64,000 nucleotides of DNA from a virus. Positions 37,075 to 59,399 of this stretch are shown piece after piece. Each line of letters opens with the position of its first letter. The first letter of the stretch is position 1. The notes below the pieces were generated by a model. It made no database searches. It was not told where the DNA came from and worked only from the letters and a program-made list of their open reading frames with translations. The stretch spans positions 1 to 64,000 of IMG/VR virus record IMGVR_UViG_3300022752_005266; one strand, 5' to 3'. The translations under genes were made by a program, and so were the position numbers.

Positions 37075-37856
37075 GGGACCTCCGCGGCGACCATAACGCG
37101 GTGGTATGGTGATTGGCGAGAATCGTGGCGATATTTCTGGGAAAGTGGCGTGGGTCCCTCAACCGTAGCGGTATGGGTGGGGGGATTTTTGCGTGCGTCA
37201 GAAAGAGCGCTCCCAGAATGGGGTCCCCATTGTGTTTCCGGCGGGTGTGGTGCCTTGCCTCGATGTTGTTGTTGATTCGGCGTTGTCTCTTCGACAACGC
37301 TGTCTGCCCCGCGAGGCTCCGGCGGTCGGGGCAGCCGAGGGCGGCTGCCGCGGTGGGGTGGGCGGGCGGACGGCGGCGGGCGGTCCGTCCCAGCGCGGCG
37401 CCGCGGCGGAGGAGCGCTCGGCGCGGCGGGCCGTCGTGGTCCGTCGTGCCCGCCAACCGGCGGGGAGGAGCGGCGGCTCACCGGGCGACCGTCACGGCCC
37501 GCCGGTTCCCCCGCGACTCCCGCCGCGGCTGCGCCGCAGCGCTCCCCGCGGGGTCAGGGTAGACGCCGCGGCGGCGGAGCGGCGGCGCGCCCCGTGCCCT
37601 TGACGGCGGATCGCGCGTAGCCGCACTGGGAAGCGCTACAGGACACGTCAACCACGGGGGTATACCTACCCCTTGCCTACCCCGTCCGCGTGCCTTCCAG
37701 CGTGTTTTGCAGGTTCAAGGCCGATTCTTCGAGGCGCCGATCTCGAGGTGGGGGCGCCGCGGCGTGGAGCTTGACGGGTCGACCGCCCCGGTATAGCTTG
37801 ACGGTGCGGGGTCCGATCCCCCGCTGTTCCCTCACTCAAGCAACGGAGTCTCCACC
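37075..37856 (+). other. Long GC-rich non-coding spacer
   Basis: This is 782 bases without a credible gene. It contains an AACCGTAGCGGTA palindrome-like site (37161-37173), the palindrome AATGGGG-T-CCCCATT (37217-37231) and an 8-bp hairpin GCGTTGTC/GACAACGC (37280-37300). Very GC-rich low-complexity DNA follows (37310-37590), then TAGCCGCACTGGGAAGCG (37618-37635), which recurs at 41192, and the palindrome GGTATACC near 37658. The downstream end holds the promoter-like site and hairpin before the gene at 37857. Confidence 0.7.
37771..37803 (+). promoter_or_regulatory. TTGACG...CGGTA regulatory site, tandem
   Basis: TTGACG (37771-37776) is followed by ACCG-CCC-CGGT (37782-37792) running into TATAGC, then a second TTGACG (37798-37803). 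The same arrangement occurs at 39825. The -35 to TATAGC distance is only 15, so the true -10 may instead be TAGCTT at spacing 17. A hairpin GCGGGG/CCCCGC (37806-37824) follows before the gene. Confidence 0.5.
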
Positions 37857-38207
37857 ATGGCCACCGCTTCCTTTCATCCCCTCTCGTTCGCCGATGACAC
37901 CCTGTGGGACGCCGCGGAGAAGCTCGCCGAGCGTGCGGACGCGGCCGATCGCGCCGCGCGGCGCTGCGAGGACCGCGCGCGGTCGATCGCGGGCGCCGAT
38001 CCGCGCGGAACGGACGACGCGGCCGAATGGCTCGCCGCGGCCCGGGAGCACACGCGCGCCGCGGCCCTGTACCTCGACGCCGCGGCCCTGTTCCGCGAGA
38101 ACGGCCACCCGTGCCTCGGTGGGAACCACGCCGCATGCGCGGAGGAGTCGCTCCGCGACGCGGCCCGCGCCGCCGGGGTCCACGCGTCACTGACAACCAC
38201 GCGGTAG
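37857..38207 (+). CDS. Hypothetical helical protein, 116 residues
   Basis: The ATG at 37857 follows GCAACGGAGTCT, the ribosome site shared by several genes here. The product is Ala/Arg-rich and alpha-helical. Residues about 40-75 share spaced identities with the 77-residue protein at 38517 (RA, DP, D, W and R in register), suggesting distant paralogy. It is the first gene of the accessory run. No family was recognised. Confidence 0.6.
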   Translation: MATASFHPLSFADDTLWDAAEKLAERADAADRAARRCEDRARSIAGADPRGTDDAAEWLAAAREHTRAAALYLDAAALFRENGHPCLGGNHAACAEESLRDAARAAGVHASLTTTR

Positions 38208-38211
38208 CCGC

Positions 38212-38310
38212 CCCGCATCCCCCCGCGAGGGGGGATGCCGCTCCGAGCCCCGTACCGCGGGGCTCCGACCGGCATCCCGCCGGAACCCAAGCAACGGAGT
38301 CTCAATCATG
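38212..38310 (+). repeat. 99-bp direct repeat, copy 1 (5' leader with competing hairpins)
   Basis: This is identical to 38754-38852 and ends exactly with the ATG of the next gene. Hairpin A pairs GCATCCCCCC with GGGGGGATGC around a GCGA tetraloop (38215-38238). An alternative outer stem pairs GGGATGCCG (38232-38240) with CGGCATCCC (38270-38278) around an inner hairpin GAGCCCCG/CGGGGCTC (38245-38265). The two structures share bases and cannot both form. The ribosome site GGAGTCT lies in the last 20 bases. Confidence 0.85.
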
Positions 38311-38520
38311 CCTGCTGCCACCCCCACCACGATCATCGCGTGGGATCCTGAATGGGAGGAGTACACCGTCAAGCGCGGCCGCGCGTCGCACCATACCGAC
38401 GCGTACGACGACGCGGTGCAAACCGCGGCCGTCATGGCCAACGGCGGCGCGATCGTCGACCGCGTGCCGAAGGCGCGCCGGCGCCTCCCGGCATGGCTCG
38501 CGGTCGGAGGTGCGAAGTGA
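38308..38520 (+). CDS. Hypothetical protein, 70 residues
   Basis: This is the first gene of the first repeat module; its ATG is the end of the 99-bp repeat. The N-terminus (TTIIAWDPEWEEYTVKRG) looks beta-type, followed by a helix and a basic segment (PKARRRLPAWLAVGGAK). The last five residues, VGGAK, are encoded by a junction sequence shared with the gene ending at 39185 (VGGAE). Its stop overlaps the next GTG start. No family was recognised. Confidence 0.6.
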   Translation: MPAATPTTIIAWDPEWEEYTVKRGRASHHTDAYDDAVQTAAVMANGGAIVDRVPKARRRLPAWLAVGGAK

Positions 38521-38750
38521 CCGCGGTCGACCCGTCGCACGTCGACGCGTGTCTCAACTACGCCCGCCGCGCGGAGCGGGATGCGCGCAACTACGATCGG
38601 CGCGCCGCGCACTTCGCGGCGATCGACCCCGACGCCTACGCCGACCTGATCGCGTGGCGCCGCGACGGCGCCCGGTATCACCGCCGGTGGGCGGGCTTTT
38701 GGCGCCGGTGGGCGCGCACCGGGCGCCAACCCCGCCTACCGGTCGAGTAA
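38517..38750 (+). CDS. Hypothetical helical protein, 77 residues, GTG start
   Basis: GTG 38517 overlaps the previous stop (GTGA), with GGAGG six bases upstream. The product is Arg/Ala/Trp-rich and helical (DGARYHRRWAGFWRRWARTG) and strongly basic. It shares spaced identities with the 116-residue protein at 37857. It is the second gene of the first repeat module. DNA or RNA binding is possible from its charge but not shown. Confidence 0.6.
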   Translation: MTAVDPSHVDACLNYARRAERDARNYDRRAAHFAAIDPDAYADLIAWRRDGARYHRRWAGFWRRWARTGRQPRLPVE

Positions 38751-38753
38751 CCG

Positions 38754-38852
38754 CCCGCATCCCCCCGCGAGGGGGGATGCCGCTCCGAGCCCCGTACCGC
38801 GGGGCTCCGACCGGCATCCCGCCGGAACCCAAGCAACGGAGTCTCAATCATG
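38754..38852 (+). repeat. 99-bp direct repeat, copy 2
   Basis: This is an exact copy of 38212-38310, shifted by 542 bases, with the same alternative hairpins and the same ribosome site, again ending in the ATG of the next gene. Identity over non-coding sequence with different downstream coding sequence suggests recent duplication or recombination at the leader. Confidence 0.85.
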
Positions 38853-39185
38853 CGTTCCCCTGACAACCGCCGCCGCGAGATCGCGCGGTTCCCGATCCCC
38901 GGCACCGACGTGGTGACCGTCGTGACCGTGTCCTACCCCTCGATCAACGGACTGCGCCGCGTCTACTCGGTAAGCGCGCAGCCTACGACGTTCGAGTCGT
39001 GGGATCACGGCACGATCGCCCGCTACGTCCCGTCGGAAGGCTACCGGACGGTGATCGGAGAGGCGCCGCGCTACTCGGCGCGCACGCTCGACACCTACGC
39101 GGCGGACCCGGAAGTGCTCGCGATCGGGCGGCGCATGCACGCGCGGATCCTCGCGGACCGCGGGATCGTCGGAGGTGCGGAGTGA
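38850..39185 (+). CDS. Hypothetical protein, 111 residues
   Basis: This is the first gene of the second repeat module. The N-terminal half is beta-type (FPIPGTDVVTVVTVSYPS), the middle contains PTTFESWDHGTIARYVPSEG, and the C-terminus is helical, ending VGGAE. Its stop overlaps a GTG start through the same GGAGGTGCG-(A/G)-AGTGACCGCG junction seen at 38505-38524. No family was recognised. Confidence 0.6.
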   Translation: MRSPDNRRREIARFPIPGTDVVTVVTVSYPSINGLRRVYSVSAQPTTFESWDHGTIARYVPSEGYRTVIGEAPRYSARTLDTYAADPEVLAIGRRMHARILADRGIVGGAE

Positions 39186-39454
39186 CCGCGCGCCCGGTGC
39201 GGATCGACACCGACGCGCGGAGCGGGAAGCGCTCCGCCGTAGCGGCCGCGTGGCGCCGGATCGAAGCGCTCCGCGTCCGCGGCTACACCGTCGACGCGGA
39301 CGGGCGGTGGACCTACGTTGCGATCGACGACTGGATCGGCGCGCGCAACGGCTACCCGTGGCGCCGTCAACCGGTTGACGGCCCGGTCGATCACGCGCGT
39401 GAGATGGCGCTATGCCGGTACGTCGCGATCGGCGGACACTTTCCGCCCGTGTAG
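39182..39454 (+). CDS. Hypothetical protein, 90 residues, GTG start
   Basis: GTG 39182 is translationally coupled to the previous gene. The product has a basic helical segment (SGKRSAVAAAWRRIEALRVR), then GYTVDADGRWTYVAIDDW, and ends in VAIGGHFPPV. It is the second gene of the second repeat module and is followed by a hairpin resembling a terminator (39481-39512). No family was recognised. Confidence 0.6.
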   Translation: MTARPVRIDTDARSGKRSAVAAAWRRIEALRVRGYTVDADGRWTYVAIDDWIGARNGYPWRRQPVDGPVDHAREMALCRYVAIGGHFPPV

Positions 39455-39480
39455 CGCTCCGCCCCGCTCCGCCCGCCTTG

Positions 39481-39512
39481 ACGGCCCGCCCGGTAACCCC
39501 GCGGCGGGCCGT
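39481..39512 (+). terminator. Terminator-like hairpin
   Basis: ACGGCCCGCC (39481-39490) pairs perfectly with GGCGGGCCGT (39503-39512), loop of 12, followed by TCGCGTT. There is no long U run. A similar hairpin followed by TTCGCGTTT is found at 41150-41183, so the pair may be the terminators of the two gene groups. Confidence 0.5.
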
Positions 39513-39683
39513 TCGCGTTGGGGCGCCGCGGCCCCGTAGCGCGCGCCGGCGGGGCCGCGCGCAGCGCGCTCCGTGTCCGGCGGTCCGGCGGCGCCTCCCT
39601 TGTGTCCGGGGTCCGGGGAAGGGGTACGGGTCCGGCGGGCCGGCGGCGCGTCCGGTGTCCGGCCGGCGGGGCCTCCCTGCGTC

Positions 39684-39810
39684 ACGCGTCCGGCGGACCG
39701 GCGGACCGGGCGACCGGCGGACCGGCGGACCGGACCGGGCGACCGGCGGACCGGCGGACCGGACCGGCGGACCGGACCGGCGCCGCCCGGGCGAACCGGG
39801 CCGGCGGACC
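39684..39810 (+). repeat. Low-complexity GACCGGCG tandem array
   Basis: About 125 bases consist of degenerate 8-9-base units (CGGCGGACCGG, GGGCGACCGG). Composition is nearly pure C/G with regularly spaced A. It lies just upstream of the regulatory site at 39825. Similar GTCCGGCGG units flank it and recur at 41215-41350. Confidence 0.8.
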
Positions 39811-39824
39811 GATCGCGAGCGCGC

Positions 39825-39868
39825 TTGACGGTCGAACCGCGCCGGTATAGCTTGACCATGCCGGTATC
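39825..39868 (+). promoter_or_regulatory. TTGACG...CGGTA regulatory site, tandem
   Basis: TTGACG (39825-39830), then ACCG-CGC-CGGT (39836-39846) running into TATAG, then TTGACC and a second CCGGTATCC (to 39868). The layout is nearly the same as at 37771. It precedes the gene at 39893 by about 25 bases. Confidence 0.5.
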
Positions 39869-39892
39869 CTTTCCCGGCGCAACGGAGTCTGA

Positions 39893-40708
39893 ATGTCCCT
39901 CTCGATCGCGGCCCTTCCTTCGGGCTATGTCCTCTACCGCGGCCCCTCTCGCTTCACCGGTGAGCCGATCGTCATCGTCGCGACCGGTATCAAGCGCAAG
40001 TCTGGCAACGTAAAGACGGGCTATCTGGTCCAGACGTGGATCCTTCCGATCGGCGCGGACGGCGCCGCTATCCTCCCGCACGTCGCGGTCCGGACCGGCG
40101 CCGCGCGTTGCGTATGCGGGCGCTGCCCGCTCCTCGGGAACGGCTGCTATGTGCGGCTCGACACCGCGCCGCGTGCCGTTGCGGACGCGTTCAACCGCGG
40201 CCGGTACCCGGACGCGTCGCCCGAAACGGTCGGCGCGATCGTCGCGGCGCACGTGCGCGCCGGCCGGATCGACGGCTTCCGGATCGGATCGTGGGGTGAC
40301 GGCGCCGCGGCGCCGGCGGATACCTGGGCTCCGATCGTGTCCGCGGTCCGCGCCGCGGGTGGGGTGACGCCCGGCTACACGCATGCATGGACGGAGCGCT
40401 ACGCTACGCGGCCGGAAGCGGTCGCGAGCGCGGACGCCTACGGCTTCCTCATGGCAAGCGCGCACGGCCCCGCGGATCGGCTCCGGGCGCGCGCCGCCGG
40501 CTTCCGGGCGTTTACGCTCCTCGCGAAGGAAGAGCGTGTTCCCGGCGCGTTCCTGTGCCCCGCGACCGAGGAAACGGACTACCGTAAGACGTGCGGCGCG
40601 TGCGGCGCGTGCGACGGAAAGCGCGGCGCCGACGACCGGCGCGCCGACCCGGTGATCGTCGTGCACGGTGCCGCTTCGAAGCGTGCCGCCGCTACCCTGA
40701 CCGCCTAA
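39893..40708 (+). CDS. Conserved phage protein with cysteine clusters, unknown function
   Basis: The product is 271 residues from ATG 39893 with CAACGGAGTCT upstream. The N-terminal part (YVLYRGPSRFTGEPIVIVAT, then GNVKTGYLVQTWIL) and ARCVCGRCPLLGNGCYVRLD follow a layout I recall from a phage family. In that family a C-x-C-x2-C-x5-C cluster precedes a conserved core. A second cluster, KTCGACGACDGKRG, lies near the C-terminus. GSWGD and WTERYATRPEA sit between. The cysteines suggest metal binding. I do not know the enzyme activity. Confidence 0.65.
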   Translation: MSLSIAALPSGYVLYRGPSRFTGEPIVIVATGIKRKSGNVKTGYLVQTWILPIGADGAAILPHVAVRTGAARCVCGRCPLLGNGCYVRLDTAPRAVADAFNRGRYPDASPETVGAIVAAHVRAGRIDGFRIGSWGDGAAAPADTWAPIVSAVRAAGGVTPGYTHAWTERYATRPEAVASADAYGFLMASAHGPADRLRARAAGFRAFTLLAKEERVPGAFLCPATEETDYRKTCGACGACDGKRGADDRRADPVIVVHGAASKRAAATLTA

Positions 40709-40733
40709 CTGACTAAACCACGGAGGTATTCCT

Positions 40734-41048
40734 ATGTCCCCTTTCCAGAAGACCACGATCGAGATCGTCACCGTCGACGGCCGCGAACCCGTCCCCGGCT
40801 ACACCGTCCGCGCCTGCCCGGCGATCGCCGTCACCCGGCGCGCGGCGAACCACCCGTGGACCCTCACCCACGTCCCGACCGGCCGGACGATGTCCCGCAC
40901 GTTCCCGAAGCTCGGCGACGCCAAGCGGACCGCGGCCGCCGTCGCGGAGCTCCTTGCCGGGGTCGACCTGACGACCGACGACCCGGCGGAGGTGGCCGGC
41001 CGGATCATGGCCGTTCCCGGGGCCCGGGCCGCGCTTTTCTACCGGTAG
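40734..41048 (+). CDS. Hypothetical protein, 104 residues
   Basis: The ATG at 40734 follows ACGGAGG. The product has a beta-type N-terminus (TTIEIVTVDGREPVPGYTV), a basic centre and a helical C-terminal half (AAAVAELLAGVDLTTDDPAE). It is followed directly by a 16-bp perfect hairpin (41058-41095). No family was recognised. Confidence 0.6.
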   Translation: MSPFQKTTIEIVTVDGREPVPGYTVRACPAIAVTRRAANHPWTLTHVPTGRTMSRTFPKLGDAKRTAAAVAELLAGVDLTTDDPAEVAGRIMAVPGARAALFYR

Positions 41049-41057
41049 GCCGGAACC

Positions 41058-41095
41058 CCGTATCGTTACGGAGCCTACGCTCCGTAACGATACGG
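41058..41095 (+). other. Perfect 16-bp hairpin after the 104-residue gene
   Basis: CCGTATCGTTACGGAG (41058-41073) pairs without mismatch with CTCCGTAACGATACGG (41080-41095), loop CCTACG. No U run follows, so it is not a standard intrinsic terminator; it may protect the 3' end of the mRNA or be a protein-binding palindrome. Confidence 0.75.
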
Positions 41096-41149
41096 ACCGG
41101 CGCGCGCACCGTCGCCTTCCGTTCTTTCTGACCTGTCAACGCTCCGACG

Positions 41150-41183
41150 CGCCTCCGGCCCGCTTTCCCGCGGTCCGGGGGCG
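41150..41183 (+). terminator. Terminator-like hairpin
   Basis: CGCCTCCGGCCCGC (41150-41163) pairs with GCGGTCCGGGGGCG (41170-41183), 13 of 14 positions including one G-T, loop TTTCCC, followed by TTCGCGTTTA. It lies about 100 bases after the gene ending at 41048. Confidence 0.55.
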
Positions 41184-41767
41184 TTCGCGTTTAGGCGCGC
41201 TGGGAAGCGATATGAGCCGTCCGGCCGGCGACCCTATGCCTACCCCCTACCGGCCCCCCTGCCTTGCCTTACAGCGCGTCCGGCGGGCCTTCCTGCGCGT
41301 CCGGCGGGCGCCTACCCCGGCGTCCGGCGGCCCGGCGTCCGGCTATCCGGGCCGGCGGGTTGCCCTTCCGGGCGCGCCTCCGGCGGAAGTCCGGTTCGAA
41401 CGCCGACTTTCCGGGATGCCGGCGGGCCGGCGGTCGAACCGGCGCCACGAAGCCGCGGACCGCCTCCCGGCGGGCGTCCGGCTTTCCCGGCGTTCGACCG
41501 GCGAAAGTTGCGATCGGCATACTGAACATCTGTGGTGTCAAATATTGAGCATTTCGCGAAAAACCCAGGTTAAACGCCGGTTATTCCTGACCCCGGGGAG
41601 GGTACCTTCTCGACCGTAACGCAAACGGCTAACGATCTTCAGCACATACAGACCCCGGTAGTACTCCGATCTACTTTGTCGTTCCCCTACCACGATCCTC
41701 TCCTCGCTCTGATCCCGTGGGGCCTATTCGCGTTTTTCGCGTCAAGTAGACCCCCCTGCGGACAGGT

Positions 41768-41933
41768 GTAACGCTCTGACCCCCTCTACAATGCCGACGG
41801 GGACGGCATCGTAGCGTTACGTCCCTTGTAACGCCGATTATTCCGCAGCCCTTCGGCGGATTATCGGCGTTCGTTCGTTCGGGATTCAGCGGTTCGGCGA
41901 TTGTCCCCGTGTAACGTCAACAATCGCCGAGCC
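41768..41933. other. Cluster of three long inverted repeats; candidate origin or structured RNA
   Basis: (1) GTAACGCT (41768-41775) and AGCGTTAC (41813-41820) enclose CTAC-A-ATGCCG / CGGCAT-C-GTAG. (2) AACGCCGAT (41830-41838) pairs with ATCGGCGTT (41863-41871), extended by ATTCCGC/GCGGATT with one mismatch and a bulge. (3) GGTTCGGCGATTGT (41891-41904) pairs with ACAATCGCCGAGCC (41920-41933), 14 bp with one G-T. GGCGAT-type units recur between them and again at 41945. No coding frame crosses them. Confidence 0.7.
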
Positions 41934-42027
41934 GTCGGGGTGGTCGGCGATAACGCAGGCTCGAGGCGGACAATCTCGAGGTTGACGGGTGGCCGAACGG
42001 AAAGATGCAGAATCTTACCGCTAAGGG

Positions 42028-42057
42028 TTGACGGGTGGCGGGGCGCCGCGGTAGTAC
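42028..42057 (+). promoter_or_regulatory. Promoter-like TTGACG...CGGTA site
   Basis: TTGACG (42028-42033) is 18 bases from TAGTAC (42052-42057); CGGTA is at 42049-42053. The preceding 14 bases GGTTGACGGGTGGC are repeated 46 bases upstream (41981), and TACCG lies at 42016. It precedes the four-gene operon starting at 42107. Confidence 0.5.
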
Positions 42058-42106
42058 TCTCTCACCGGCAGCCAGTGAGGCGGCCGGCTTCACCCACGGA
42101 GTCAAC

Positions 42107-42451
42107 GTGACCCCCTGCCCCTTCTCTCTCGACGACCTCGACCACGAGGCCACGACCTTCCCCGGCTACGTCGACCGCGGCGACGACCTGAGCCGCCTGC
42201 TCGCCCGGCTCCACGACGCGTGGCGCAACGGCGACGACAACGCCGCGGTGACCGCCTCGGCGCTGCTGGCCTACGCTCGGGCGCTCCGCCTCGAAGCGGT
42301 GGCGCTCGACGAGGCGCGGCGCGAGCAGGACCGCATCCGCGAGGCCTACGGCGCGGCGCGCTGGACGTGCCACAACTACGTGTACATGCCCGGCCTCACC
42401 GACGCCGAACGCGACGAGGCGGCGCAGCTGTTCAACGACGAGGTGGAGTGA
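42107..42451 (+). CDS. Hypothetical protein, 114 residues, GTG start
   Basis: GTG 42107 has ACGGAG upstream; an ATG at 42035 would place the promoter-like site within the gene and is rejected. The product is acidic and helical (LDEARREQDRIREAYGAARW), and ends ERDEAAQLFNDEVE. It is the first of four coupled genes. No family was recognised. Confidence 0.6.
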   Translation: MTPCPFSLDDLDHEATTFPGYVDRGDDLSRLLARLHDAWRNGDDNAAVTASALLAYARALRLEAVALDEARREQDRIREAYGAARWTCHNYVYMPGLTDAERDEAAQLFNDEVE

Positions 42452-42597
42452 TGCGCGCCCGCCTCGCCGTGGCGGCCGGTATCGCCGCCGGTCTTCTCGC
42501 GGCCGTCGTGGCCCACCTCGGCGGCGTGTTCGCCGCCGACCTCGTGGGCTGGGCGGTCGGCTTCTCCACCTTCTTCTCCCTGCGGGGTGTCAAGTGA
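42451..42597 (+). CDS. Small membrane protein, 48 residues
   Basis: ATG 42451 overlaps the preceding stop as TGATG, with GGTGGAG upstream. The protein is almost entirely hydrophobic: residues 3-25 (AVAAGIAAGLLAAVVAHL) and 27-45 (FAADLVGWAVGFSTFFSL) can each span the membrane. Its stop overlaps the next GTG. A membrane-directed early function such as superinfection exclusion is possible; nothing specific was recognised. Confidence 0.65.
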   Translation: MRARLAVAAGIAAGLLAAVVAHLGGVFAADLVGWAVGFSTFFSLRGVK

Positions 42598-42920
42598 CCG
42601 ATCTGGACCTGCTCGGCGCCGAGCTTGCGGCGCTGCTGAACGACGACGGCAACGGGGGCGACCTCGGCTACGCCGAGCACCTCGGCGACGGGGTGCTCGA
42701 CTCCGGGTGGAGTCGGCGCCGGCTCGATACGAAGCTGCGCGGCGAAGTGCGCATCCTGATCGAGGTGGACGGCGACACGCCGACGGCGGTCGTGGCCACG
42801 CTCTGGTACGACGAGGCGGGCGAGCCCGTCGAGGACGAGTGCCACGCCGAGGGGCTCGCCCTCGGCGACGTGGCCGGCATCCGCGCGGCGGTCGACGCCG
42901 CCCTCGGGGGTGCGCGATGA
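42594..42920 (+). CDS. Hypothetical acidic protein, 108 residues
   Basis: GTG 42594 is coupled by a GTGA overlap. The product is very acidic, with a helical start (LDLLGAELAALLNDDGNG), a beta-type middle (EVRILIEVDGDTPTAVVATL) and LWYDEAGEPVEDECH. Acidic small phage proteins of this size often act as inhibitors or DNA mimics, but there is no direct evidence here. Confidence 0.6.
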   Translation: MTDLDLLGAELAALLNDDGNGGDLGYAEHLGDGVLDSGWSRRRLDTKLRGEVRILIEVDGDTPTAVVATLWYDEAGEPVEDECHAEGLALGDVAGIRAAVDAALGGAR

Positions 42921-43231
42921 CCCGGCGGCAGTGGTCGTGCGGCTACACCGCCGCCGGGATGCGCGTCCACCTCGACCTCCGCCGGGACGGCGACGCGGGC
43001 ACGTTCACCCTGTGGTGCCGGGACGGCGACGAGGCCTACCGCGCCGGCTGCTGGGACTTCACCGATCAGCACGAGGAACTCGGCGCCGCGTTCGACGCGC
43101 AGGTGGCGATCGAGGTGCTGCTCCGGGGCGGCGAGGTGGACGAGCCGCCGCGCTGGTTCCCCGCCGCCGTGCTCGGCCTGCACGCGCTGGCCGACCCGAT
43201 CCGCGACGAGCCCGGTGCCCTCGGCGCGTAG
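42917..43231 (+). CDS. Hypothetical protein, 104 residues
   Basis: ATG 42917 overlaps the preceding stop (ATGA). The sequence contains QWSCGYTAAGMRVHLDLRRD, then AGTFTLWCRDGDEAYRAGCW and WDFTDQHEELGAAF; three cysteines are not in a recognised metal motif. It is the last gene of the 42.1-43.2 kb string. No family was recognised. Confidence 0.6.
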   Translation: MTRRQWSCGYTAAGMRVHLDLRRDGDAGTFTLWCRDGDEAYRAGCWDFTDQHEELGAAFDAQVAIEVLLRGGEVDEPPRWFPAAVLGLHALADPIRDEPGALGA

Positions 43232-43290
43232 CGCGCTGCTCTCCCGGCGGGACGGTCCTACCCCGTCTCGCCGGCTGCCGATAATCTTTC

Positions 43291-43319
43291 TTGACGCCGT
43301 CCTACCGGGGCGGTAAGTG
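43291..43319 (+). promoter_or_regulatory. Promoter-like site with perfect TACCG-GGG-CGGTA palindrome
   Basis: TTGACG (43291-43296) is 17 bases from TAAGTG (43314-43319). The spacer contains TACCG (43303-43307), GGG, and CGGTA (43311-43315), a perfect 5-bp dyad overlapping the -10. It precedes the gene at 43370. Confidence 0.55.
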
Positions 43320-43369
43320 TTTCTCACCGGCTGCCCGTGAGCCGGCCAACCCCGCACTCTGGAGTCAGC

Positions 43370-43624
43370 ATGCTCCCCAGCTGGATCGTCAACCCTGTCG
43401 ACGCCGAAACGGCGATCGAGATCACCCTCCTCGTCAGCCCTATGATCGACTTCTCGCAGGTGGAGGACAGCCGCGACGTGTCGGCCTACATCGGCGCGAT
43501 GGTCGGGGCGTTCCAGTCGAAGCACCGCGACGCCGACTGGAACTGCGAGGACTACCTCTCCGCGATCGAAAGCTTCGTCGCCGCCTACATCGCCGCCGAC
43601 CCCGTCCACTTCATCCGCGCCTAA
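43370..43624 (+). CDS. Hypothetical protein, 84 residues
   Basis: ATG 43370 (MLPSWIVNPVDAETAIEIT) has CTGGAGTC upstream, the same ribosome site as the next gene. The product is helical and acidic with aromatic residues (DADWNCEDYLSAIESFVAAY). No family was recognised. Confidence 0.6.
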   Translation: MLPSWIVNPVDAETAIEITLLVSPMIDFSQVEDSRDVSAYIGAMVGAFQSKHRDADWNCEDYLSAIESFVAAYIAADPVHFIRA

Positions 43625-43653
43625 GCGCATCACCCCCACCCTCTGGAGTCAAC

Positions 43654-45087: not shown

Positions 45088-45163
45088 GCCGCTGCGCGGG
45101 GAGGCCTCGCCCTCCCCGCCCTGCGCGCCTGCCGGGGTCCGACCCCCCGGCGCCGAGGCGCGC

Positions 45164-45223
45164 AGAATAGCCGGCCTCCGCGGGCTTTCTCCGTTGACTC
45201 GCCAGTCGACGGCCGGCTATTCT
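45164..45223 (+). other. Long nested inverted repeat, terminator-like
   Basis: AGAATAGCCGGCC (45164-45176) and GGCCGGCTATTCT (45211-45223) form a perfect 13-bp stem. Inside it, CCGTTGACT/AGTCGACGG forms a second 9-bp hairpin with loop CGCC, leaving a one-sided TCCGCGGGCTTTCT bulge. It lies between the DUF932-like gene and the next promoter, suggesting a terminator, though no U run follows. Confidence 0.65.
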
Positions 45224-45230
45224 CCGCACC

Positions 45231-45259
45231 TCGACATACCGCTCCGGTATCGCTATACT
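45231..45259 (+). promoter_or_regulatory. Promoter with perfect TACCG-CTC-CGGTA operator-like palindrome
   Basis: TCGACA (45231-45236) is 17 bases from TATACT (45254-45259). The spacer contains the 5-bp dyad TACCG (45237-45241) and CGGTA (45245-45249) around CTC. The dyad adjoins the -35, a normal operator position. It drives the gene string beginning at 45283. Confidence 0.65.
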
Positions 45260-45282
45260 CCCCCGACCCCGAGGACCTCACC

Positions 45283-45627: not shown

Positions 45628-45641
45628 GAAGGAGTCTCCCG

Positions 45642-46022: not shown

Positions 46023-46037
46023 CGAGGAGTTACGACA

Positions 46038-47877: not shown

Positions 47878-47891
47878 AACCGGAGCGTCAA
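47878..47891 (-). promoter_or_regulatory. TTGACG-N4-CGGT regulatory site before terS
   Basis: On the minus strand TTGACG (47891-47886) is followed by CTCCGGTTAT. The TGA within it is the stop codon of the 163-residue gene. At spacing 17 there is only the ribosome site, so this copy has no clear -10 and may be an operator rather than a promoter. Confidence 0.45.
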
Positions 47892-50492: not shown

Positions 50493-51240
50493 GGCGGCGG
50501 GCTCGGGGGTAGAGGTTGCCTCGGGGCGCGACGAAGCCCTCGTCCCGGAGTCGGACGATGGCGGTATTGATCGTCGAGCGATTGTAGCGGAGCTTCGGTT
50601 CCAACGAACGTAGCGTTTCGCAGGGAGCCCCGGAAGACCACGCATCCACCACGGCGCACAGCACCTGATGGTGAGACTTCCAGGAGTTCCGGACGAGGTC
50701 CGCCTCGACGAGGCCGCGGCCCGTTGGCACGATGCCGTTCGCCAAGACACCACGGCGCCGGAGCTCCGCTGTATACAGCCTTACATCTCGCTCAGAAAGT
50801 TTGAGCGCATCCGCCACGTCGAGGATAGTGGACGCCTGTCCCCGGCCTGCGCGGCGGCGGACGAAGAAGGAGATACGGAACAGGGTCGCCCCGTCGAACG
50901 CGCGAGACTCGCCACCCTGCGGCGGCTCCGGAGTGACGCGAGGGTAGGGCACCTCGGCGCGCTCGCAGTACCGCACCAGCCGCATGTAGAGCCGGCGGGT
51001 CGACGTCGGGCCCGGCGCCTCGCCGAGCGCCTCGGCGATCTCCGGGAACTCCATGCCGGCCTTCCGCATCTCGTAGAGGCGGGGGCCGACGGTGTCGGCA
51101 GCGGCGCGCAGCCGCTTGTTGATGTTGCTCGCCGAGCAGCCCAGCGCTGCGGCGACCTGCTTCTGCGTCTGACCGGCAGCCAGCAAGGCGCGCACGTTGG
51201 CGATCTCGGCCTCCGTCCACGAATACCCGCGGCTTTTCAT
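50485..51240 (-). CDS. DNA-binding protein with two helix-turn-helix regions
   Basis: The product is 251 residues from ATG 51240 (MKSRGYSWTEAEIANVRA) with GGAGG upstream. N-terminal HTH: LLAAGQTQKQVAAALGCSAS then INKRLR. A second winged-helix unit: ILDVADALKLSERDVRLYTA then ELRRRGVL, and a third possible repeat near residues 215-240 (SLEPKLRYNRSTINTAIVRL). It overlaps the ATPase gene start by 8 bases, so the two are coupled. It is a candidate replication initiator, or the regulator that binds the dispersed TTGACG...CGGTA sites. No family name was recognised. Confidence 0.6.
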   Translation of the reverse strand: MKSRGYSWTEAEIANVRALLAAGQTQKQVAAALGCSASNINKRLRAAADTVGPRLYEMRKAGMEFPEIAEALGEAPGPTSTRRLYMRLVRYCERAEVPYPRVTPEPPQGGESRAFDGATLFRISFFVRRRAGRGQASTILDVADALKLSERDVRLYTAELRRRGVLANGIVPTGRGLVEADLVRNSWKSHHQVLCAVVDAWSSGAPCETLRSLEPKLRYNRSTINTAIVRLRDEGFVAPRGNLYPRARRHE

Positions 51241-51520: not shown

Positions 51521-53335
51521 CTACTCCTGCGCGGCTACGCCGTTGGCGATGATCTGCGACGCGCTCTCGCGCGTCATCTGGGCGATGGCGGCGTCGGTGT
51601 ACCCGAGCGCCTTGAGCATCGCGCCCATCGTCGGGCTGGGCACGAACACCTTGAACGTGGGCTTGGCCGCCTCGACGATGCTGGGCTCGACCTCGACCGG
51701 CTCGGCGTCGGTCGCCCCGAGCTCGATGACCGTCCAGCCGGCGGGCACCTTCTTCGGCTTCGTCGGCGTGCCGATGACGACCTGCCCCTCGAACTTGCCC
51801 CAGGCCGACAGGACGTGGGTGAGGGTGTTCGCATCCCAGCCGCGGTCCTCCGGCATCACGAGCACCGGCTGGTGCGCGTGCGCCGCTTGGCTGATCGCCA
51901 TGGCGATGGCGCACGTCACCGTCGCCCACTCCGCACCGGAGAGCGCGGCCCGGAGCTTCTTGCCCGTCAGCAGGCCGAGGCGGAACACCTCCTTCTCGTT
52001 CTCGGTGAACTGCATCCCGAAGGTCCAGTTGGTCGGGAGGTAGGCCTGCACCCGCGCGACGAACGCCGCGGCCACTCGCTTGAGAAGCTCGGCGACGATG
52101 TCCTCCAGCGACCCCTTCATGTCCTTGTAGGTCGTGCTCTCCCGCGCCATCTCGGCCGCGGTGTCGCGCGCCTTCTTCAGGCTTGCCCACCGGTCGGCGA
52201 GGTTCCGGAGCCGGAGGTACTCCTCCTGCGCCGCCTGCGCCTGCGCTTCGAGCGCCTCGGCATCAATCTCCAGCATCTCCTTCAGCGTCTCCAGCTCGAC
52301 CAGCGCTTCGTTCAGCTGCGTGTGCAGCGTGACGAGGTCGACGCTCGGCGTCACGGGAGGGGCCACCATCGCGGCGGCCTGCTGCTGGTAGAACGCACCG
52401 CACATCTCGATGTGCGCCTTGCCCACCGGGCTGGAGCAGAGCGGGCAGCTGTCGACGCCACGCTCGACGGCGAAGCTCGCCGCGTACGCCATCGACTCGT
52501 AGAACTTCCGCTCGAACGTGTTCGGCTGCGGCGCAGGCGCAACGGCCGGCGCGTTGACCTTCTCCCCCAGGCTCCGTACTTTCAACAGCAGCGCCTCCTC
52601 GCGGCGCCGCGCATCCTGTACGGCGGACAGCCGGTTGCCGAGCAGGGTCATCTGCCACTTGGCGCCGTTGATGTCTTCCTCGGTGGGGCAGGCGTCGAGG
52701 TCGTCCGTCAGCGAGGTGAGCAGCGACTCGGCGCCGGCCGCCTCCTTCGAGGCCTCCCGCTGCCGCTTGCCGACGTACTCCAGCGTCGCGAGCAGCGCGT
52801 CGACCGGGGCCATCTTGCGGCCCACGGCGGCGCTGATGTCCTCGAACTTGCTCCGGTAGACGCCGGGCACCATCTCCAGCACGTCGCCCATCGTGACGTC
52901 GGTGGCGGCCCAGGCGAGGAACGCCTTGCGCGCCGTGGCCGGGCTGCCTTCGAGCACGTCCCGCACCTGCTGCAACGGCAGCATCGCCGGCGCGCCGGTG
53001 TCGTGCGCGGGCCGCCCGCCGTCCTTCGCGGTGAAGACGTAGTCGTCGCCGGTCGAGGTGCGTGCGTGGATGCTCAGCCGCTCCGCGCTGACCATGCTCA
53101 TGAGCAGGCCGCTGTCCTTCACGCCGGTGCGCCCGACGAGATCGTCGGCGCTGCCGACCAGCGCGAGCTGAAGGCTCTGCTGGATGGCGCTCTTGCCCGA
53201 GCCGTTCGGCCCGACGATCAGCGTCTTCGGTCCGAGCTCGACGTTCTTCGGCTTTCCGTCGGGCGTCTTGAGGTTCGTGGTGATGCGTTCGACGTAGGGG
53301 TACGTCGCGGCGGCGGCAGTCTTCTTGGGGGGCAT
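51521..53335 (-). CDS. Rad50/SbcC/SMC-like ATPase
   Basis: The product is 604 residues from ATG 53335. Walker A GPNGSGKS (42-49) lies near the N-terminus. A coiled-coil arm contains the Rad50-type zinc hook CPLC near 296-299 (SCPLCSSPVGKAHIE). An ABC signature-like LSGAEWATVT is found at about 464, and a Walker B-like QPVLVMPEDRG at about 486. This order is diagnostic for the Rad50/SbcC/RecF superfamily. No SbcD-like nuclease is seen next to it. It probably acts in phage DNA recombination or repair. The arm is short compared with cellular SbcC. A C-terminal extension of about 90 residues follows the ATPase. Confidence 0.85.
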   Translation of the reverse strand: MPPKKTAAAATYPYVERITTNLKTPDGKPKNVELGPKTLIVGPNGSGKSAIQQSLQLALVGSADDLVGRTGVKDSGLLMSMVSAERLSIHARTSTGDDYVFTAKDGGRPAHDTGAPAMLPLQQVRDVLEGSPATARKAFLAWAATDVTMGDVLEMVPGVYRSKFEDISAAVGRKMAPVDALLATLEYVGKRQREASKEAAGAESLLTSLTDDLDACPTEEDINGAKWQMTLLGNRLSAVQDARRREEALLLKVRSLGEKVNAPAVAPAPQPNTFERKFYESMAYAASFAVERGVDSCPLCSSPVGKAHIEMCGAFYQQQAAAMVAPPVTPSVDLVTLHTQLNEALVELETLKEMLEIDAEALEAQAQAAQEEYLRLRNLADRWASLKKARDTAAEMARESTTYKDMKGSLEDIVAELLKRVAAAFVARVQAYLPTNWTFGMQFTENEKEVFRLGLLTGKKLRAALSGAEWATVTCAIAMAISQAAHAHQPVLVMPEDRGWDANTLTHVLSAWGKFEGQVVIGTPTKPKKVPAGWTVIELGATDAEPVEVEPSIVEAAKPTFKVFVPSPTMGAMLKALGYTDAAIAQMTRESASQIIANGVAAQE

Positions 53336-53379: not shown

Positions 53380-53409
53380 CTCTTAGTGTACTTGTACCGG
53401 AACGTCAAG
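53380..53409 (-). promoter_or_regulatory. TTGACG...CGGTA promoter-like site
   Basis: On the minus strand TTGACG (53408-53403), then TTCCGGTAC, and at spacing 17 TAAGAG (53385-53380). The TGA is the stop of the 134-residue gene ending at 53405. It lies directly before the Rad50-like gene starting at 53335. Confidence 0.5.
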
Positions 53410-55351: not shown

Positions 55352-55377
55352 GGGGGCCTCGGAGTGACGCTGAATAA

Positions 55378-55406
55378 TCTGTATCAGCGCCTTACCGCAG
55401 CGTCAA
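55378..55406 (-). promoter_or_regulatory. TTGACG...CGGTA promoter
   Basis: On the minus strand TTGACG (55406-55401) is 17 bases from TACAGA (55383-55378), with CTGCGGTAA immediately after the -35. The -35 contains the TGA stop of the DNA polymerase gene (55403-55405). It drives the leader ORF and DUF3310 string. Confidence 0.65.
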
Positions 55407-58240
55407 GCTTCCTTGAGGTTCCTTCCGACGCTCGCCTCAGCGGTCAGCGGGACTTCCCAGCCAGGAACGCGCACGGTCATGCACTCCTCGACCTGCTTCC
55501 GGTACGCCTCCAGCTCGGCCGGTAGGGCCTCGCCCTTCTTCGGCTTCCAGCTCGCCAGTCCCGGCGGCGCCTCGATCTCGATGGCGATGGAGTCGTGGCA
55601 CTGGTGGATGAGGCCCGTCCGCTTGCCGAGGTTCCACGGGAACGCATGAATGAGCGTCTGCTCGGCGAGCCGCATGATGCTCGTCTCGGCGGCGAGGATG
55701 GGGAAGTTGACCACCTCGTTCTTCTTGCCGTCGGAGAGGCCACCCGAGCGGCGACCGAGCACCGGCTCCTCCATGAAGCCCTGATGCCGATACACCGACA
55801 GCATTGTCTCCCAGGCCGTCATCCACTCCGGCTCGTTCTTGAGCCACGTCTCGTGGAAGTGACGCACCTCCTTCGAGGTCATGTGCAGGTACGGCATCTC
55901 GCCGTTGTCCGACTCGGTCGACGTGAGCACCTGCCAGACCGTCAGCGGGTCTGCCCAGTAGATTGAGGCGTAGCGGAACGTCTTCATGACGTCGCGCATC
56001 GCCTTCGCCATGCCGCCGTTCGGCTTCTTGTAGAGGCTGAAGCCGTCCGTCCCCCAGCCGTCGGCGCTCTTGAACTTGTCGCCGAACACCTGATACGCGA
56101 GCGTGTTGTGCGGGTCCTTCCCCTCGCTGAAGCATTCGAGCAGGAGCGGGATGCGCCAGTAGTTCGCCGTGATGCGAAGGTGCGCTTGGTCGAGGTCGGC
56201 GCCGACGAGCAGGTGCCCCGGCTCCGCGGCGAAGAGCGTCTTGAGCTTGCCCTGCCCCTTGCGGCTGCCGATGTTCTGGAGGTTCGGGCCGGACGATGAC
56301 AGCCGGCCCGGCGCTGTGACGTGAGCGTTCCAGGTGGAGCGCACCCGCCCGTCCGCATGCCAGATGACGCCCTTCTTCGGGTCGTGCGCGGCGAGGTTCA
56401 ACGGGAGCAGCACGGTGCCCAGGATCTTGTTCTTCTCGCGCCGGTACAGGCGAAGCTCGCGGATGAACGCTTCCTGATCGGGGGATAGCCGGCCGCCTGC
56501 GAGGTGGCCGCGCAGCACCTTGTCGCCGGTGCCGGGCATCCCGGACATCGTGTAGAAGTCGCGCGCCTCCATGTTCGGCGGGATGCCGAGCTTCCACTCT
56601 TCGTAGAGCAGGTCGCGGATCTGATCGGCGCTGCCGGGCGCGATGCCCGCCGTCTCGCCGTCGCCCTCGTCGTTCGCGCCCGCGCTCTTAAGGTCGAGCT
56701 TTCCGACGCCCGCCGCTACGGCGAGCTCCGACAGCCGCTTCTCTCGCTTCACGACCGAGGCCCGCGTCTCCATCTCCATCTGGAAGCGCGCCTCCTGGTC
56801 GACGTAGACGCCAATCTTGTGGAGGTTGACGCACATGTCCTGCGTCGCGTGGTCGACCTCGTGCAGGTCCCAGCGACGGCTTTCCCAGCCCACCGGGCGC
56901 AGCGCCTCGGGCAGGTCCCGGAACGCACCGGCTATCTCCGCCGCGTCCATCAGCGGCACCACGATGCGCGCGTTGACCGCCGAGTCGGTGCAGTTGTACG
57001 CGAGCCGGTCCCAGTCGTCGACGTTGCCGAAGGCGAGGCTCTCGCCCTTCTCCGTCGTCTCCCAGCGGTCGACGTCGGTGAGCACCGAGCCCACGACCTT
57101 CAGCCCCTTCGGAAGCTCCGGCGCCCGGAACCGCGCTGCGAAGAGCGTGTCGATGATCGGCATCGGTGTGACGCCGAGCCACTGCTCGACGACCTGCCGG
57201 TCGTAGTACCCGGCGTTGTGCCCGACCTTCACCTTCGACGTGTCGAGGAAGAAGTGGCGCAGGATGTCGAGGATGCGCGCCTCGTCGGCGGCGTCGTAGT
57301 ACCGCGTGAACCCGTCGCCGCTCAGGATGTTGAGCCCCATCACCTCGCAGCGCGTCGCTTCCTCTTGGCCGGGCCGCAGCGCGCGCCCCGCGGCGTTGAG
57401 GTCCGGGTGCGCGATGGCGATGGAGCGCACCGCGCACACCAGCGACTCGATGCCGTCCGTCTCCAAGTCGTAGGCCCAGAAGGGCGCGGGCCGCGCCAGG
57501 AACGCTTCCAGCTCGTCCGGCGTCGGGTTGAAGGTACGGACCGGCTCGGTCCATCGAAGCGCCCCAGAGAACCAGCGGAGGGCCTTCCCGAGGTCCGCAT
57601 GTAGGACGTGGCGCCAACCCGGCGAGCGCTGCACGAAGCTCGGATGCAGGATGGGGAACACCTTGCGCACCGCGCCGTCGGGGATCGCCTCGCCCGCGAG
57701 CGGCGTCTCCAGCAGCGCGCCATAGCTCTCGTTCACCCAGACCGGCCCGCCCCGCAGCGAGAAGATGGACTGTGCCTTGCCGGTGAGCGAGTTGGCCGCG
57801 ACTCGGCCCATCGCAACGATGTTCTCGTAGCGGTCGGCTTCAGCCAGTAGACGGGGCCTACAGCATGTGATAGGGTCCGGGATGCCGGGCAGGCCCTGCG
57901 CGAGAAGGCGCCGGTTCTCCTTGTCGAGCGACTTGTTGAGCTTCTCCCAGGCGTTCTGCTGCGTGCCGGCCGAGCATGCGACGACGTGCGTGAGGTCGAT
58001 GTCGGTGCGCTTGAAGCCGACGGCGAGGAGCGCGTTGTTCCACTCGGCGCCGGACCGACCGGAGAGGGGCCGCCCGTTGTTGGCGTCCTCGACGTGCGGC
58101 ATCTCGGCGACGGCGAGGATGGTCGCGCCGGCGTGCTTCTCCGGCGGGACGGGCTGCCAGTGACCGTCGCGATACTCGCCCTTCGGGCCGAGGGGACACT
58201 CGTTGCAGCGGGCGCCGCAGGTGCGGGGATCGTAGCTCAT
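55403..58240 (-). CDS. Uracil-DNA glycosylase/family A DNA polymerase fusion
   Basis: The product is 945 residues. The N-terminal domain (1-230) resembles a Fe-S family 4 uracil-DNA glycosylase: C8, C12 and C15, ILAVAEMPHVED (41-52), NGRPLSGRSG (55-64), C89, CC126-127 and LHPS (198-201). A 3'-5' exonuclease follows, with D258/E260, N342/D347 and Y415/D419. The polymerase has GRLSSSGPNLQNI (645-657), motif A ADLDQAHLR (681-689), R749/K753 and Y761 in motif B, and H882-D883 in motif C. In motif C the usual Glu is Ser884, and Tyr761 is followed by Trp instead of Gly. Position 757, matching the dNTP-discriminating Phe, is Tyr. A glycosylase-polymerase fusion is known in phage SPO1. It is the replicative polymerase. 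Confidence 0.9.
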   Translation of the reverse strand: MSYDPRTCGARCNECPLGPKGEYRDGHWQPVPPEKHAGATILAVAEMPHVEDANNGRPLSGRSGAEWNNALLAVGFKRTDIDLTHVVACSAGTQQNAWEKLNKSLDKENRRLLAQGLPGIPDPITCCRPRLLAEADRYENIVAMGRVAANSLTGKAQSIFSLRGGPVWVNESYGALLETPLAGEAIPDGAVRKVFPILHPSFVQRSPGWRHVLHADLGKALRWFSGALRWTEPVRTFNPTPDELEAFLARPAPFWAYDLETDGIESLVCAVRSIAIAHPDLNAAGRALRPGQEEATRCEVMGLNILSGDGFTRYYDAADEARILDILRHFFLDTSKVKVGHNAGYYDRQVVEQWLGVTPMPIIDTLFAARFRAPELPKGLKVVGSVLTDVDRWETTEKGESLAFGNVDDWDRLAYNCTDSAVNARIVVPLMDAAEIAGAFRDLPEALRPVGWESRRWDLHEVDHATQDMCVNLHKIGVYVDQEARFQMEMETRASVVKREKRLSELAVAAGVGKLDLKSAGANDEGDGETAGIAPGSADQIRDLLYEEWKLGIPPNMEARDFYTMSGMPGTGDKVLRGHLAGGRLSPDQEAFIRELRLYRREKNKILGTVLLPLNLAAHDPKKGVIWHADGRVRSTWNAHVTAPGRLSSSGPNLQNIGSRKGQGKLKTLFAAEPGHLLVGADLDQAHLRITANYWRIPLLLECFSEGKDPHNTLAYQVFGDKFKSADGWGTDGFSLYKKPNGGMAKAMRDVMKTFRYASIYWADPLTVWQVLTSTESDNGEMPYLHMTSKEVRHFHETWLKNEPEWMTAWETMLSVYRHQGFMEEPVLGRRSGGLSDGKKNEVVNFPILAAETSIMRLAEQTLIHAFPWNLGKRTGLIHQCHDSIAIEIEAPPGLASWKPKKGEALPAELEAYRKQVEECMTVRVPGWEVPLTAEASVGRNLKEA

Positions 58241-58254
58241 ACTCCGGGCGTAAC

Positions 58255-58268
58255 TTGACGCCGTGGTA
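58255..58268 (+). promoter_or_regulatory. TTGACG...GGTA site in reversed orientation
   Basis: TTGACG (58255-58260) followed by CCGTGGTA reads on the plus strand, although both neighbouring genes are on the minus strand. It lies 15 bases upstream of the polymerase start. In this orientation it cannot be that gene's -35, so it is more likely an operator copy. Confidence 0.4.
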
Positions 58269-58279
58269 TGCGCCAGCCG

Positions 58280-58909
58280 TCAGCGGCGGAAGTCGGCGTC
58301 CTCGTCCTTGTCTTCGTCACGATCGACCGTGCTGTTCAACCGAGCCGCCAGCGCGCGCATCTTCTCCGGGTTGGCAGTCAGGTCGCGCATCTCCTTCGCC
58401 AGCGCCGTGTCCTGCGTCTCGTTGGCGTAGTCGCGGAGCGCGTCTTGTGCGGCGTTGATGCCGACGTCGTAACTGATGTTGCGGGCCGCCGGCCCGTACG
58501 CCTTCGCCGTCTGAAGCGCGCGGCCCGCGCTGGACTTCGACAGCAGGATCTGCGGCGGCGGCTGATTCAGTCGCTGCGACGTGGCGGCTTCCAGTAGCCC
58601 CAGCGCGACCTTGGCCGCGCCCTCCTTCGTGCGCCCCTGCCGGGCGTCGGTGAGGCCCTCGGCGACGTACATCCCCGCGCTCAACGCACCCGCGCCGAGA
58701 GCCGCCGTGCCGGCGATCGGCGCACCCGCGACAGACGCGACACCGAGCCCGATCGCCCCGAGCCCCGCGTAGTCGCCGACGGACCGGAGGAGCTTTTGCG
58801 TCTCCGCCTCGATCGTCGGGGGCAGTTTCAGGCTGGGGCTCGCCGCTGCGTTGTCCTGCAGCGCGCGCCGCATCCCGTCCTTTCGCTCGAAGTAGTCGTC
58901 GGTCGGCAT
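58280..58909 (-). CDS. Protein with Gly/Ala hydrophobic stretch, possibly membrane-associated
   Basis: The product is 209 residues from ATG 58909. Residues 48-82 are Gly/Ala-rich and hydrophobic (GLGAIGLGVASVAGAPIAGT), a glycine zipper that may insert into membrane. Helical and charged segments follow, and the C-terminus is acidic (DRDEDKDEDADFRR). It is resident between polymerase and methylase, unlike the other glycine-zipper proteins, which are structural. The ATG lies six bases after a -10, so a leaderless transcript is possible. Confidence 0.55.
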   Translation of the reverse strand: MPTDDYFERKDGMRRALQDNAAASPSLKLPPTIEAETQKLLRSVGDYAGLGAIGLGVASVAGAPIAGTAALGAGALSAGMYVAEGLTDARQGRTKEGAAKVALGLLEAATSQRLNQPPPQILLSKSSAGRALQTAKAYGPAARNISYDVGINAAQDALRDYANETQDTALAKEMRDLTANPEKMRALAARLNSTVDRDEDKDEDADFRR

Positions 58910-58915
58910 CGTCCG

Positions 58916-58925
58916 ACTATATCAC
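58916..58925 (-). promoter_or_regulatory. Extended -10 promoter, possible leaderless start
   Basis: On the minus strand GTGATATAGT contains TG-A-TATAGT, an extended -10. Six bases (CGGACG) separate it from the ATG of the 209-residue gene, so transcription would start at or next to the start codon. No good -35 is present. Confidence 0.45.
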
Positions 58926-59347
58926 TTCGCTGGATAGAACACGACGACGGCGCTCGGGAACGGCGCGCTGTTGGTCGCGGTCCCGAACCTCAAGCGGCCG
59001 CGGATGAACGTGACCTTGCCCTTTGCCGCGTAGTCGTGCCACCACGCGGTATCGGTACGCGCCGGGACGAGGCAGACCACCGTGGCGCCCTTGAGGCTCT
59101 CCTCGTACGCCTTCTGCATCCAGCGCCCGATCTCACGGCCGTAGGGCGGATTCATCCAGCACCGGTTCGGAGCCCATTCCTGGAAGAGTCCGTTGTCCTG
59201 CTCGCTGAAGTAGCGCCAGCACTTCGCGTTCTGCGCATCCGCGCACACGTCCAGCTCGAACCGGAAGTGTGCGTCCCACTCGTCGAAGAACGCCTGCGGC
59301 GTCGCCCACTGGTCGGTCGCCGACGAGAACATGACATCGGTGTTCAT
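58922..59347 (-). CDS. DNA N6-adenine methyltransferase, Dam-like phage type
   Basis: The product is 141 residues, the size of the phage Dam family. It has the family's N-terminal WATPQAFFDEWDAHFRFELD, then CADAQNAKCWRYFS, and the catalytic-type NPPYG motif at 66-70. It then has VVCLVPARTDTAWWHDY, matching the following conserved segment. It methylates adenine using S-adenosylmethionine, probably to protect phage DNA from restriction. It is preceded by two tandem TGACG...CGGTA sites that touch the start codon region. Confidence 0.85.
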   Translation of the reverse strand: MNTDVMFSSATDQWATPQAFFDEWDAHFRFELDVCADAQNAKCWRYFSEQDNGLFQEWAPNRCWMNPPYGREIGRWMQKAYEESLKGATVVCLVPARTDTAWWHDYAAKGKVTFIRGRLRFGTATNSAPFPSAVVVFYPAK

Positions 59348-59363
59348 GACGCTCCCGTATCTC

Positions 59364-59399
59364 TACCGGGGCGTCATGGCAACTCTACCGCAGCGTCAT
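59364..59399 (-). promoter_or_regulatory. Two tandem TGACG...CGGTA operator-like sites before the methylase
   Basis: On the minus strand ATGACG-CTGCGGTAGAG (59399-59386 region) and ATGACG-CCCCGGTAGAG (59377-59364 region) lie 22 bases apart, two helical turns. A third partial match, TGACG-CTCCCGTA, reads in the other direction over the ATG of the methylase (59346-59359). No -10 is found at spacing 17, so these are more likely protein-binding sites. Confidence 0.55.

Follow-up and report, generated by a model that had tools for sequence, protein, structure and literature searches.

A probable operator dyad with a fixed centre

The window analysed here spans positions 1-64000 of IMG/VR virus record IMGVR_UViG_3300022752_005266, which is 66,010 bp long; coordinates above 64000 are those of the record. 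It carries genes for a PolA-family DNA polymerase, an SbcC-like protein, a Dam-like methylase and a helicase, together with an island of plus-strand genes, and a short motif recurs among their promoters. A first-pass annotation described this motif as TTGACG and CGGTA separated by a variable gap of 2-18 bases, and read it, tentatively, as promoter plus operator of a phage regulon. Every motif sequence it listed is present in the window, and the observation is not a chance one, given 8 copies of TTGACG-N2-18-CGGTA against 0.47 expected.

The variable gap, however, did not survive gap controls. The window has 8 copies of TGACG-N3-CGGT, and none of the other gaps between 0 and 24 is represented more than 4 times. 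We also searched 68 loci of relatives from a polA-based scan, 22 of them "close" (~76-91% identity) and 46 "far" (~56-68%). In these we counted 40 copies of TTGACG-N3-CGGTA, in 25 loci, and no more than two at any of the other gaps between 0 and 21; for the looser TTGAC-N4-CGGTA the count was 57, in 40 loci. The true element is a dyad 13 bp long whose two halves are always 3 bp apart: (TGACG or NACCG)-N3-CGGT(A/T). Its extended consensus, CTTGACG-NNN-CGGTAAG, is an imperfect palindrome of the half-sites CTTGACG and CTTACCG. The ACCG-N3-CGGT dyad that the first-pass annotation noted at 37771, 39825, 43291 and 45231 is this palindrome too, built there from two ACCG halves. Variant dyads in relatives (TTGCCG-N3-CGGTA, TGACG-GGA-CGTCA and TGACA-GGG-TGTCA) keep the 3-bp centre in every case. 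A position weight matrix built from relatives alone and run on the record recovered 7 sites of at least 14 bits, against 0.45 in simulated sequence.

The TTGACG half-site doubles as a sigma70 -35 box, in the arrangement TTGACG-N17-TANNNT: among 60 distinct sites, 22 have TANNNT after a 17-base spacer, and none of the other spacer lengths between 10 and 29 accounts for more than 8. Aligned sites of relatives read C-TTGAC-(G/A)-N-T-(G/C)-CGGTA-(A/G)-G, and the positions at which a -10 box would start are enriched in T and A. At 37771, 39825, 43291 and 45231 the ACCG-type dyad sits within the 17-bp spacer between the -35 box (TTGACG or TCGACA) and the -10 box, so there the hexamer is a -35 box only, outside the operator. 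The first three of these are sites with 12 to 14 bases between TTGACG and CGGTA. What looked by eye like one motif with a variable gap thus resolves into a fixed dyad and a -35 box. The sites and associated features are as follows.

37161..37173, minus strand: operator dyad TACCG-CTA-CGGTT, upstream of gene 36169-37074
37771..37799, plus strand: promoter TTGACG-N17-TAGCTT with spacer operator GACCG-CCC-CGGTA (37781-37793); gene 37857-38207
39825..39853, plus strand: promoter TTGACG-N17-TAGCTT with operator AACCG-CGC-CGGTA (39835-39847); gene 39893-40708 (phrog_2554)
43291..43319, plus strand: promoter TTGACG-N17-TAAGTG with operator TACCG-GGG-CGGTA (43303-43315)
45231..45259, plus strand: promoter TCGACA-N17-TATACT with operator TACCG-CTC-CGGTA (45237-45249; site sequence TACCGCTCCGGTA); gene 45283-45627
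47878..47890, minus strand: operator TGACG-CTC-CGGTT abutting TATGAT; gene 47284-47856
53395..53408, minus strand: operator and -35 box TTGACG-TTC-CGGTA, with TAAGAG at N17; SbcC-like gene 51521-53335
55393..55406, minus strand: operator and -35 box TTGACG-CTG-CGGTA (site sequence TTGACGCTGCGGTAAGG), with TACAGA at N17; promoter past the PolA stop, for an operon from ~55351
58255..58268, plus strand: tentative operator TGACG-CCG-TGGTA, directly upstream of the PolA start, inverted
59364..59376, minus strand: operator TGACG-CCC-CGGTA in the spacer of TTGCCA-N17-TACGGG; Dam-like methylase gene 58922-59347
59386..59398, minus strand: tandem second operator TGACG-CTG-CGGTA of the Dam-like methylase promoter, 22 bp upstream of the first
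62974..64000, minus strand: in-window part of the helicase gene (Helicase_C; record 62974-64905), whose promoter and operator lie beyond the window
Record 64943-64956, beyond the window: helicase-side operator TTGACG-CTG-CGGTA, with TACGCT at N17
Within record 64943-64975: divergent promoter of an XRE-family gene, TTGACG-N17-TAGCAT, with variant dyad TGACG-GCG-TGGTT

Most of the earlier member list held. The supported sites are those it placed at 37771, 39825, 43291, 45231, 47886, 53403 and 55401 and the pair at 59364 and 59386 (within 59364-59399), to which we add 37161-37173 and 64943-64975, both missing from it. We rejected 39478, since 39479..39510 (plus strand) is a terminator-like hairpin (-32.6 kcal/mol fold) directly past a stop codon. 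Three others are weak: 42028 is a single half-site; 14276 (TGACG-AAG-CGGTT) is intergenic and dyad-like; and 58255 scores 13.8 bits in the relatives-trained matrix, its 13-mer recurring at the SbcC-gene promoter region of one relative (G002). Both 14276 and 58255 are oriented against the adjacent gene, and conservation of neither was found in relatives: a strict dyad lies upstream of PolA in 0/44, and for 14276 a single relative aligned, away from the start. Gap-3 matches at 414 (an apparently coding stretch) and 39375 (coding sequence) were taken as chance. An N9 match at 28591-28610 belongs to a conserved divergent structural promoter of another layout.

Placement and conservation across relatives

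The dyad lies where a regulatory site would be expected. In six genomes with genes called by codon usage, 18 of 19 TTGACG-N3-CGGT(A/T) sites fall in non-coding or start-proximal DNA, which makes up 15-19% of the sequence. For ACCG-N3-CGGT(A/T) the figure is 9/17, against 3/63 when the ten other gaps in the range 0-10 are taken together. The record has ten sites of the two types, all of them in regulatory DNA (15.9% of the record).

The dyad is also conserved at orthologous junctions. Gap-3 dyads occur upstream of operon-leading genes of relatives in 67/105 cases and upstream of control genes in 0/169 (PDDEXK, RecA/Sak4-like, g60284, PolA, D5-like helicase, a 251-residue helix-turn-helix (HTH) gene and g47888). 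By lead gene, the dyad is found upstream of XRE in 24/30 (within 150 bp), helicase in 5/5, Dam in 11/12, the SbcC-like gene in 19/40, the 47284 gene in 4/13 and the 36169 gene in 4/5. The corresponding Fisher test (p ~7e-37) is indicative only, since the upstream regions, although de-duplicated, are still kin by descent and the lead genes were picked for having a site in the record. Together with the fixed spacing, the intergenic placement and the -10 boxes at N17, this conservation leaves the earlier reading of a phage regulon, promoter plus operator, well supported.

Individual sites recur at the same junctions. The 55393 site is kept directly past the polA stop in eight loci (L010, L013, L015, L016, L019, L056, L061 and L064), and the element at 47878-47890 in four (L013, L015, L061 and L064). 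A gap-3 dyad is also present upstream of the 36169-37074 orthologs in G003, G004 and G006. In G006, TACCGCCACGGTA stands upstream of the ortholog of 43654-45087, the gene next after the 43291 site; for the distant G006 homolog of 39893-40708, one analysis found a gap-3 dyad upstream and another placed the start differently.

Several other features lie close to these sites. A second conserved element, CACCATACCAC(C/A)GCGTTATG, is found directly upstream of gene 36169-37074 (window 37074-37110), in G002 and, as a close variant, in G004; it resembles a variant dyad, TACCA-N3-CGTTA. The plus-strand island (window 37600-47300) has 71% GC, small genes and GGAGTC-type ribosome sites. Most of its genes are without a homolog in the relatives' polA loci, but some of the relatives' long records do contain homologs of 43654-45087 and of the phrog_2554 gene 39893-40708. 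Between genes at 39600-39800 there are dense tandem CCGGCGGACCGG-type repeats. The structural promoters at 28575-28610 (CATACCGTGTTAGCATAG rightward, GGTAGACTTGACGG...CGGTAGACT leftward) are conserved in five other genomes and may hold a degenerate half-operator. To the left of 14276, a 3258-residue protein (4490-14266) has one weak PHROG match (phrog_9880, unknown function), and a search of Pfam found no RNA polymerase domain in it.

At its N terminus the PolA-family polymerase (window 55403-58240) has a uracil-DNA-glycosylase-like domain (PF03167, 39.6 bits) that, judging by length, is conserved in relatives. The polA match is ~0.9-1.1 kb longer in L016 (10001-13759), L056 (10001-13945), L018 and L020, a sign that the gene may be interrupted there by an intein or intron.

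Annotated relatives were of no help: a megablast search of 50,697 phage records returned nothing, and polA had only distant matches in the phage collection, below 60% identity. A search of 84,980 bacterial and archaeal genomes found no close polA relative, only two distant ones (25-31% identity). A distant polA relative (L177 10001-12259, 31% identity) is on a 57-kb contig of a Proteobacteria metagenome-assembled genome; the contig may come from a phage that was binned together with its host, and so may hint at the host range. When viral contigs were scanned for an exact 15-mer, 85 stretches came back, a set too mixed to be used as a test.

The predicted binder and its circuit

The first-pass annotation proposed a 251-residue HTH protein (50485-51240) as a candidate binder. 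A better candidate is a 106-residue XRE/HTH_3 protein encoded past the window end (record 65027-65347), divergently from the helicase operon. Its HTH_3 (PF01381) match scores 28.9 bits against a Pfam cut-off of 23, and such a match occurs exactly once in each of 14 records; 13 of the close loci and 28 of the far ones have a homolog. The region that separates the XRE gene from the helicase operon has head-to-head sites at fixed spacing (GTCAAG-GAAAG-TTGACG in the record). Thirty distinct XRE upstream regions hold 39 gap-3 dyads, in 28 regions, against 4 dyads at twelve other gaps. In 28 held-out XRE upstreams from a separate scan, with the pattern fixed beforehand, there were 26 gap-3 dyads in 19 regions, against 5 at the twelve other gaps. 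An AlphaFold2 model of the L013 ortholog is all-helical, with five helices (pLDDT 90.7). Its Foldseek neighbours in the PDB are XRE proteins, including C.BclI, C.EcoT38I, C.Esp1396I and HigA, all generic matches (best E 0.02). There is a single short HTH domain in the protein, and a protease-like domain at the C terminus is absent.

We therefore consider it probable, with some confidence, that the dyads are operators of this one small phage-encoded, Cro/CI-like protein. The promoters concerned, of sigma70 type, are those of the operons for helicase, SbcC-like, Dam, post-polA and island genes, and in them the dyad lies over the -35 box, in the spacer or over the -10 box. The XRE protein would bind the dyad as a dimer and block RNA polymerase at these promoters, its own included, and so would limit its own synthesis. 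As it accumulates, it would keep low, time or shut down the early and middle operons (helicase, SbcC-like, Dam, post-polA and the plus-strand island), and with them the DNA-replication genes. In class A sites, a half-site of the operator would have become fused with the -35 hexamer, so that TTGACG serves as both.

Could the sites simply be sigma70 phage promoters, a TTGACR -35 box with a preferred spacer sequence and no dedicated DNA-binding protein? Many do have a -10 box at N17, and TTGACR and TANNNT are consensus columns. However, the dyad is retained where its TGACG half is off the -35 position: in the Dam promoters it lies entirely within the spacer, with the -35 box (TTGCCA/TTGACT) 6 bp further upstream, and at 47878-47890 it abuts TATGAT. 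It is also retained without TTGACG, as ACCG-N3-CGGT in spacers and, in far relatives, as TACCG-TAA-CGGT over the -10 box of the XRE promoter. The dyad is thus more than promoter sequence, and we regard the promoter-only explanation as very improbable. It is also quite improbable that another protein binds the dyad, be it the 251-residue protein, the one encoded at 47284-47856 or a regulator from the host. The 251-residue protein does have HTH domain matches, and the 47284 gene has homologs in both close and far groups, a weak Pfam HTH match below cut-off and an operator upstream. Yet homologs of the 251-residue protein occur in 11/22 close relatives and in 0/46 of the far group, which nonetheless retains the dyad and has, in 30/46 loci, the D5-like helicase gene that neighbours the gene for the 251-residue protein; nor does that protein's gene have a gap-3 dyad upstream (0/8). 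By contrast, the XRE gene is flanked by operators in almost every family, and XRE is the sole HTH_3 match in 14/14 records.

If XRE is the binder, its role might differ from the one sketched above. The fold neighbours C.BclI, C.EcoT38I and C.Esp1396I are controllers of restriction-modification systems, and like these C proteins XRE might be an activator or dual regulator that turns operons on while accumulating. We think this unlikely, as the structural matches are to XRE proteins in general and the operators overlap the -35 box, spacer or -10 box, positions that usually block polymerase. It could instead be the master immunity repressor of a temperate phage, silencing all operons in a plasmid-like or integrated prophage. 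Many operons with dispersed operators are indeed a feature of P1 C1 (PMC8546580) and of L5-type repressors (PMC9283540). Phage_integrase, Resolvase (serine recombinase) and AAA_31 (ParA), however, had no match in 14 records, which may be fragments. The lack of a close polA in the 84,980 bacterial and archaeal genomes searched and of a protease-like C-terminal domain in XRE also speak against this role, which seems rather unlikely. A Cro-like timing repressor fits better and is favoured, because of the missing integrase, serine recombinase and ParA matches and the polA result.

Some observations weigh against this interpretation. The case for repression comes from geometry, and from some registers the protein could activate. 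The record is a linear fragment, so the absence of lysogeny genes is unproven. Imperfect dyads only are present in 2/30 XRE upstream regions and 9/28 held-out ones, and the SbcC-like gene has a strict gap-3 dyad in just 19/40 distinct ortholog upstreams from close and far relatives. Nevertheless, as far as sequence can tell, the phage regulon of shared operators is real. We more tentatively suggest, as a reading slightly less likely than not, that a widespread, uncultivated and non-lysogenic lineage times its programme by one 100-residue Cro-like autorepressor acting at about ten dispersed operators, in which a half-site and the -35 hexamer have become one, and the shared bases govern both recognition by the repressor and the strength of the promoter.

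Comparison with known systems

The lambda-type CI/Cro operators (lambda, P22 and 434) are pseudo-palindromes of ~17 bp that are bound by XRE/HTH_3-type proteins and overlap core promoter elements, and in lambda divergent promoters flank the regulator gene. Here, too, symmetric operators lie over core promoter elements, with divergent promoters at an XRE/HTH_3 gene. However, lambda-type operators are clustered at two promoters, whereas these are dispersed over about ten. In place of the CI/Cro pair there is a single HTH_3 match per record (14 records), and no lysogeny genes were seen. The repressor of Streptomyces phage phiC31 has dispersed, conserved inverted-repeat operators at early promoters; by description, it differs in protein family and sequence.

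In L5, CTTGAC is part of both the repressor site and the -35 box, as it is here, and in both systems the sites are dispersed in promoters and short intergenic spaces. Stoperators of the L5 type, once bound, stop the elongation of transcripts. The L5-type (Cluster A mycobacteriophage) repressor is a 183-residue monomer with two DNA-binding domains, and its more than 20 sites are asymmetric, orientation-dependent 13-mers (PMC9283540). The present sites are instead dyads with interchangeable TGACG and ACCG half-sites, and the predicted binder is a 106-residue single-HTH protein. We considered an L5-type stoperator system because of the common CTTGAC(A), and rejected it on these two defining features: the site is a dyad and the XRE protein is short. 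P1 C1 has 22 operators dispersed over the genome, with the asymmetric 17-bp consensus ATTGCTCTAATAAATTT (PMC8546580). The likeness is in one phage protein (here the predicted binder) with many dispersed operators; the difference is in the operator itself, an asymmetric 17-mer in P1 and a dyad with a 3-bp centre here.

As in these dispersed-operator regulons, the same operator stands at many promoters of one phage genome and is kept in relatives. The kind of circuit is thus already known, while this particular circuit, in an uncultivated lineage, is undescribed. It is the first predicted regulatory circuit, with operator, regulator and target operons, for a phage group seen here only in metagenome-derived records. 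Since the same dyad reads across relatives with ~58% polymerase identity, the circuit should be useful for studying operator-regulator co-evolution and for predicting transcription units in dark-matter phages.

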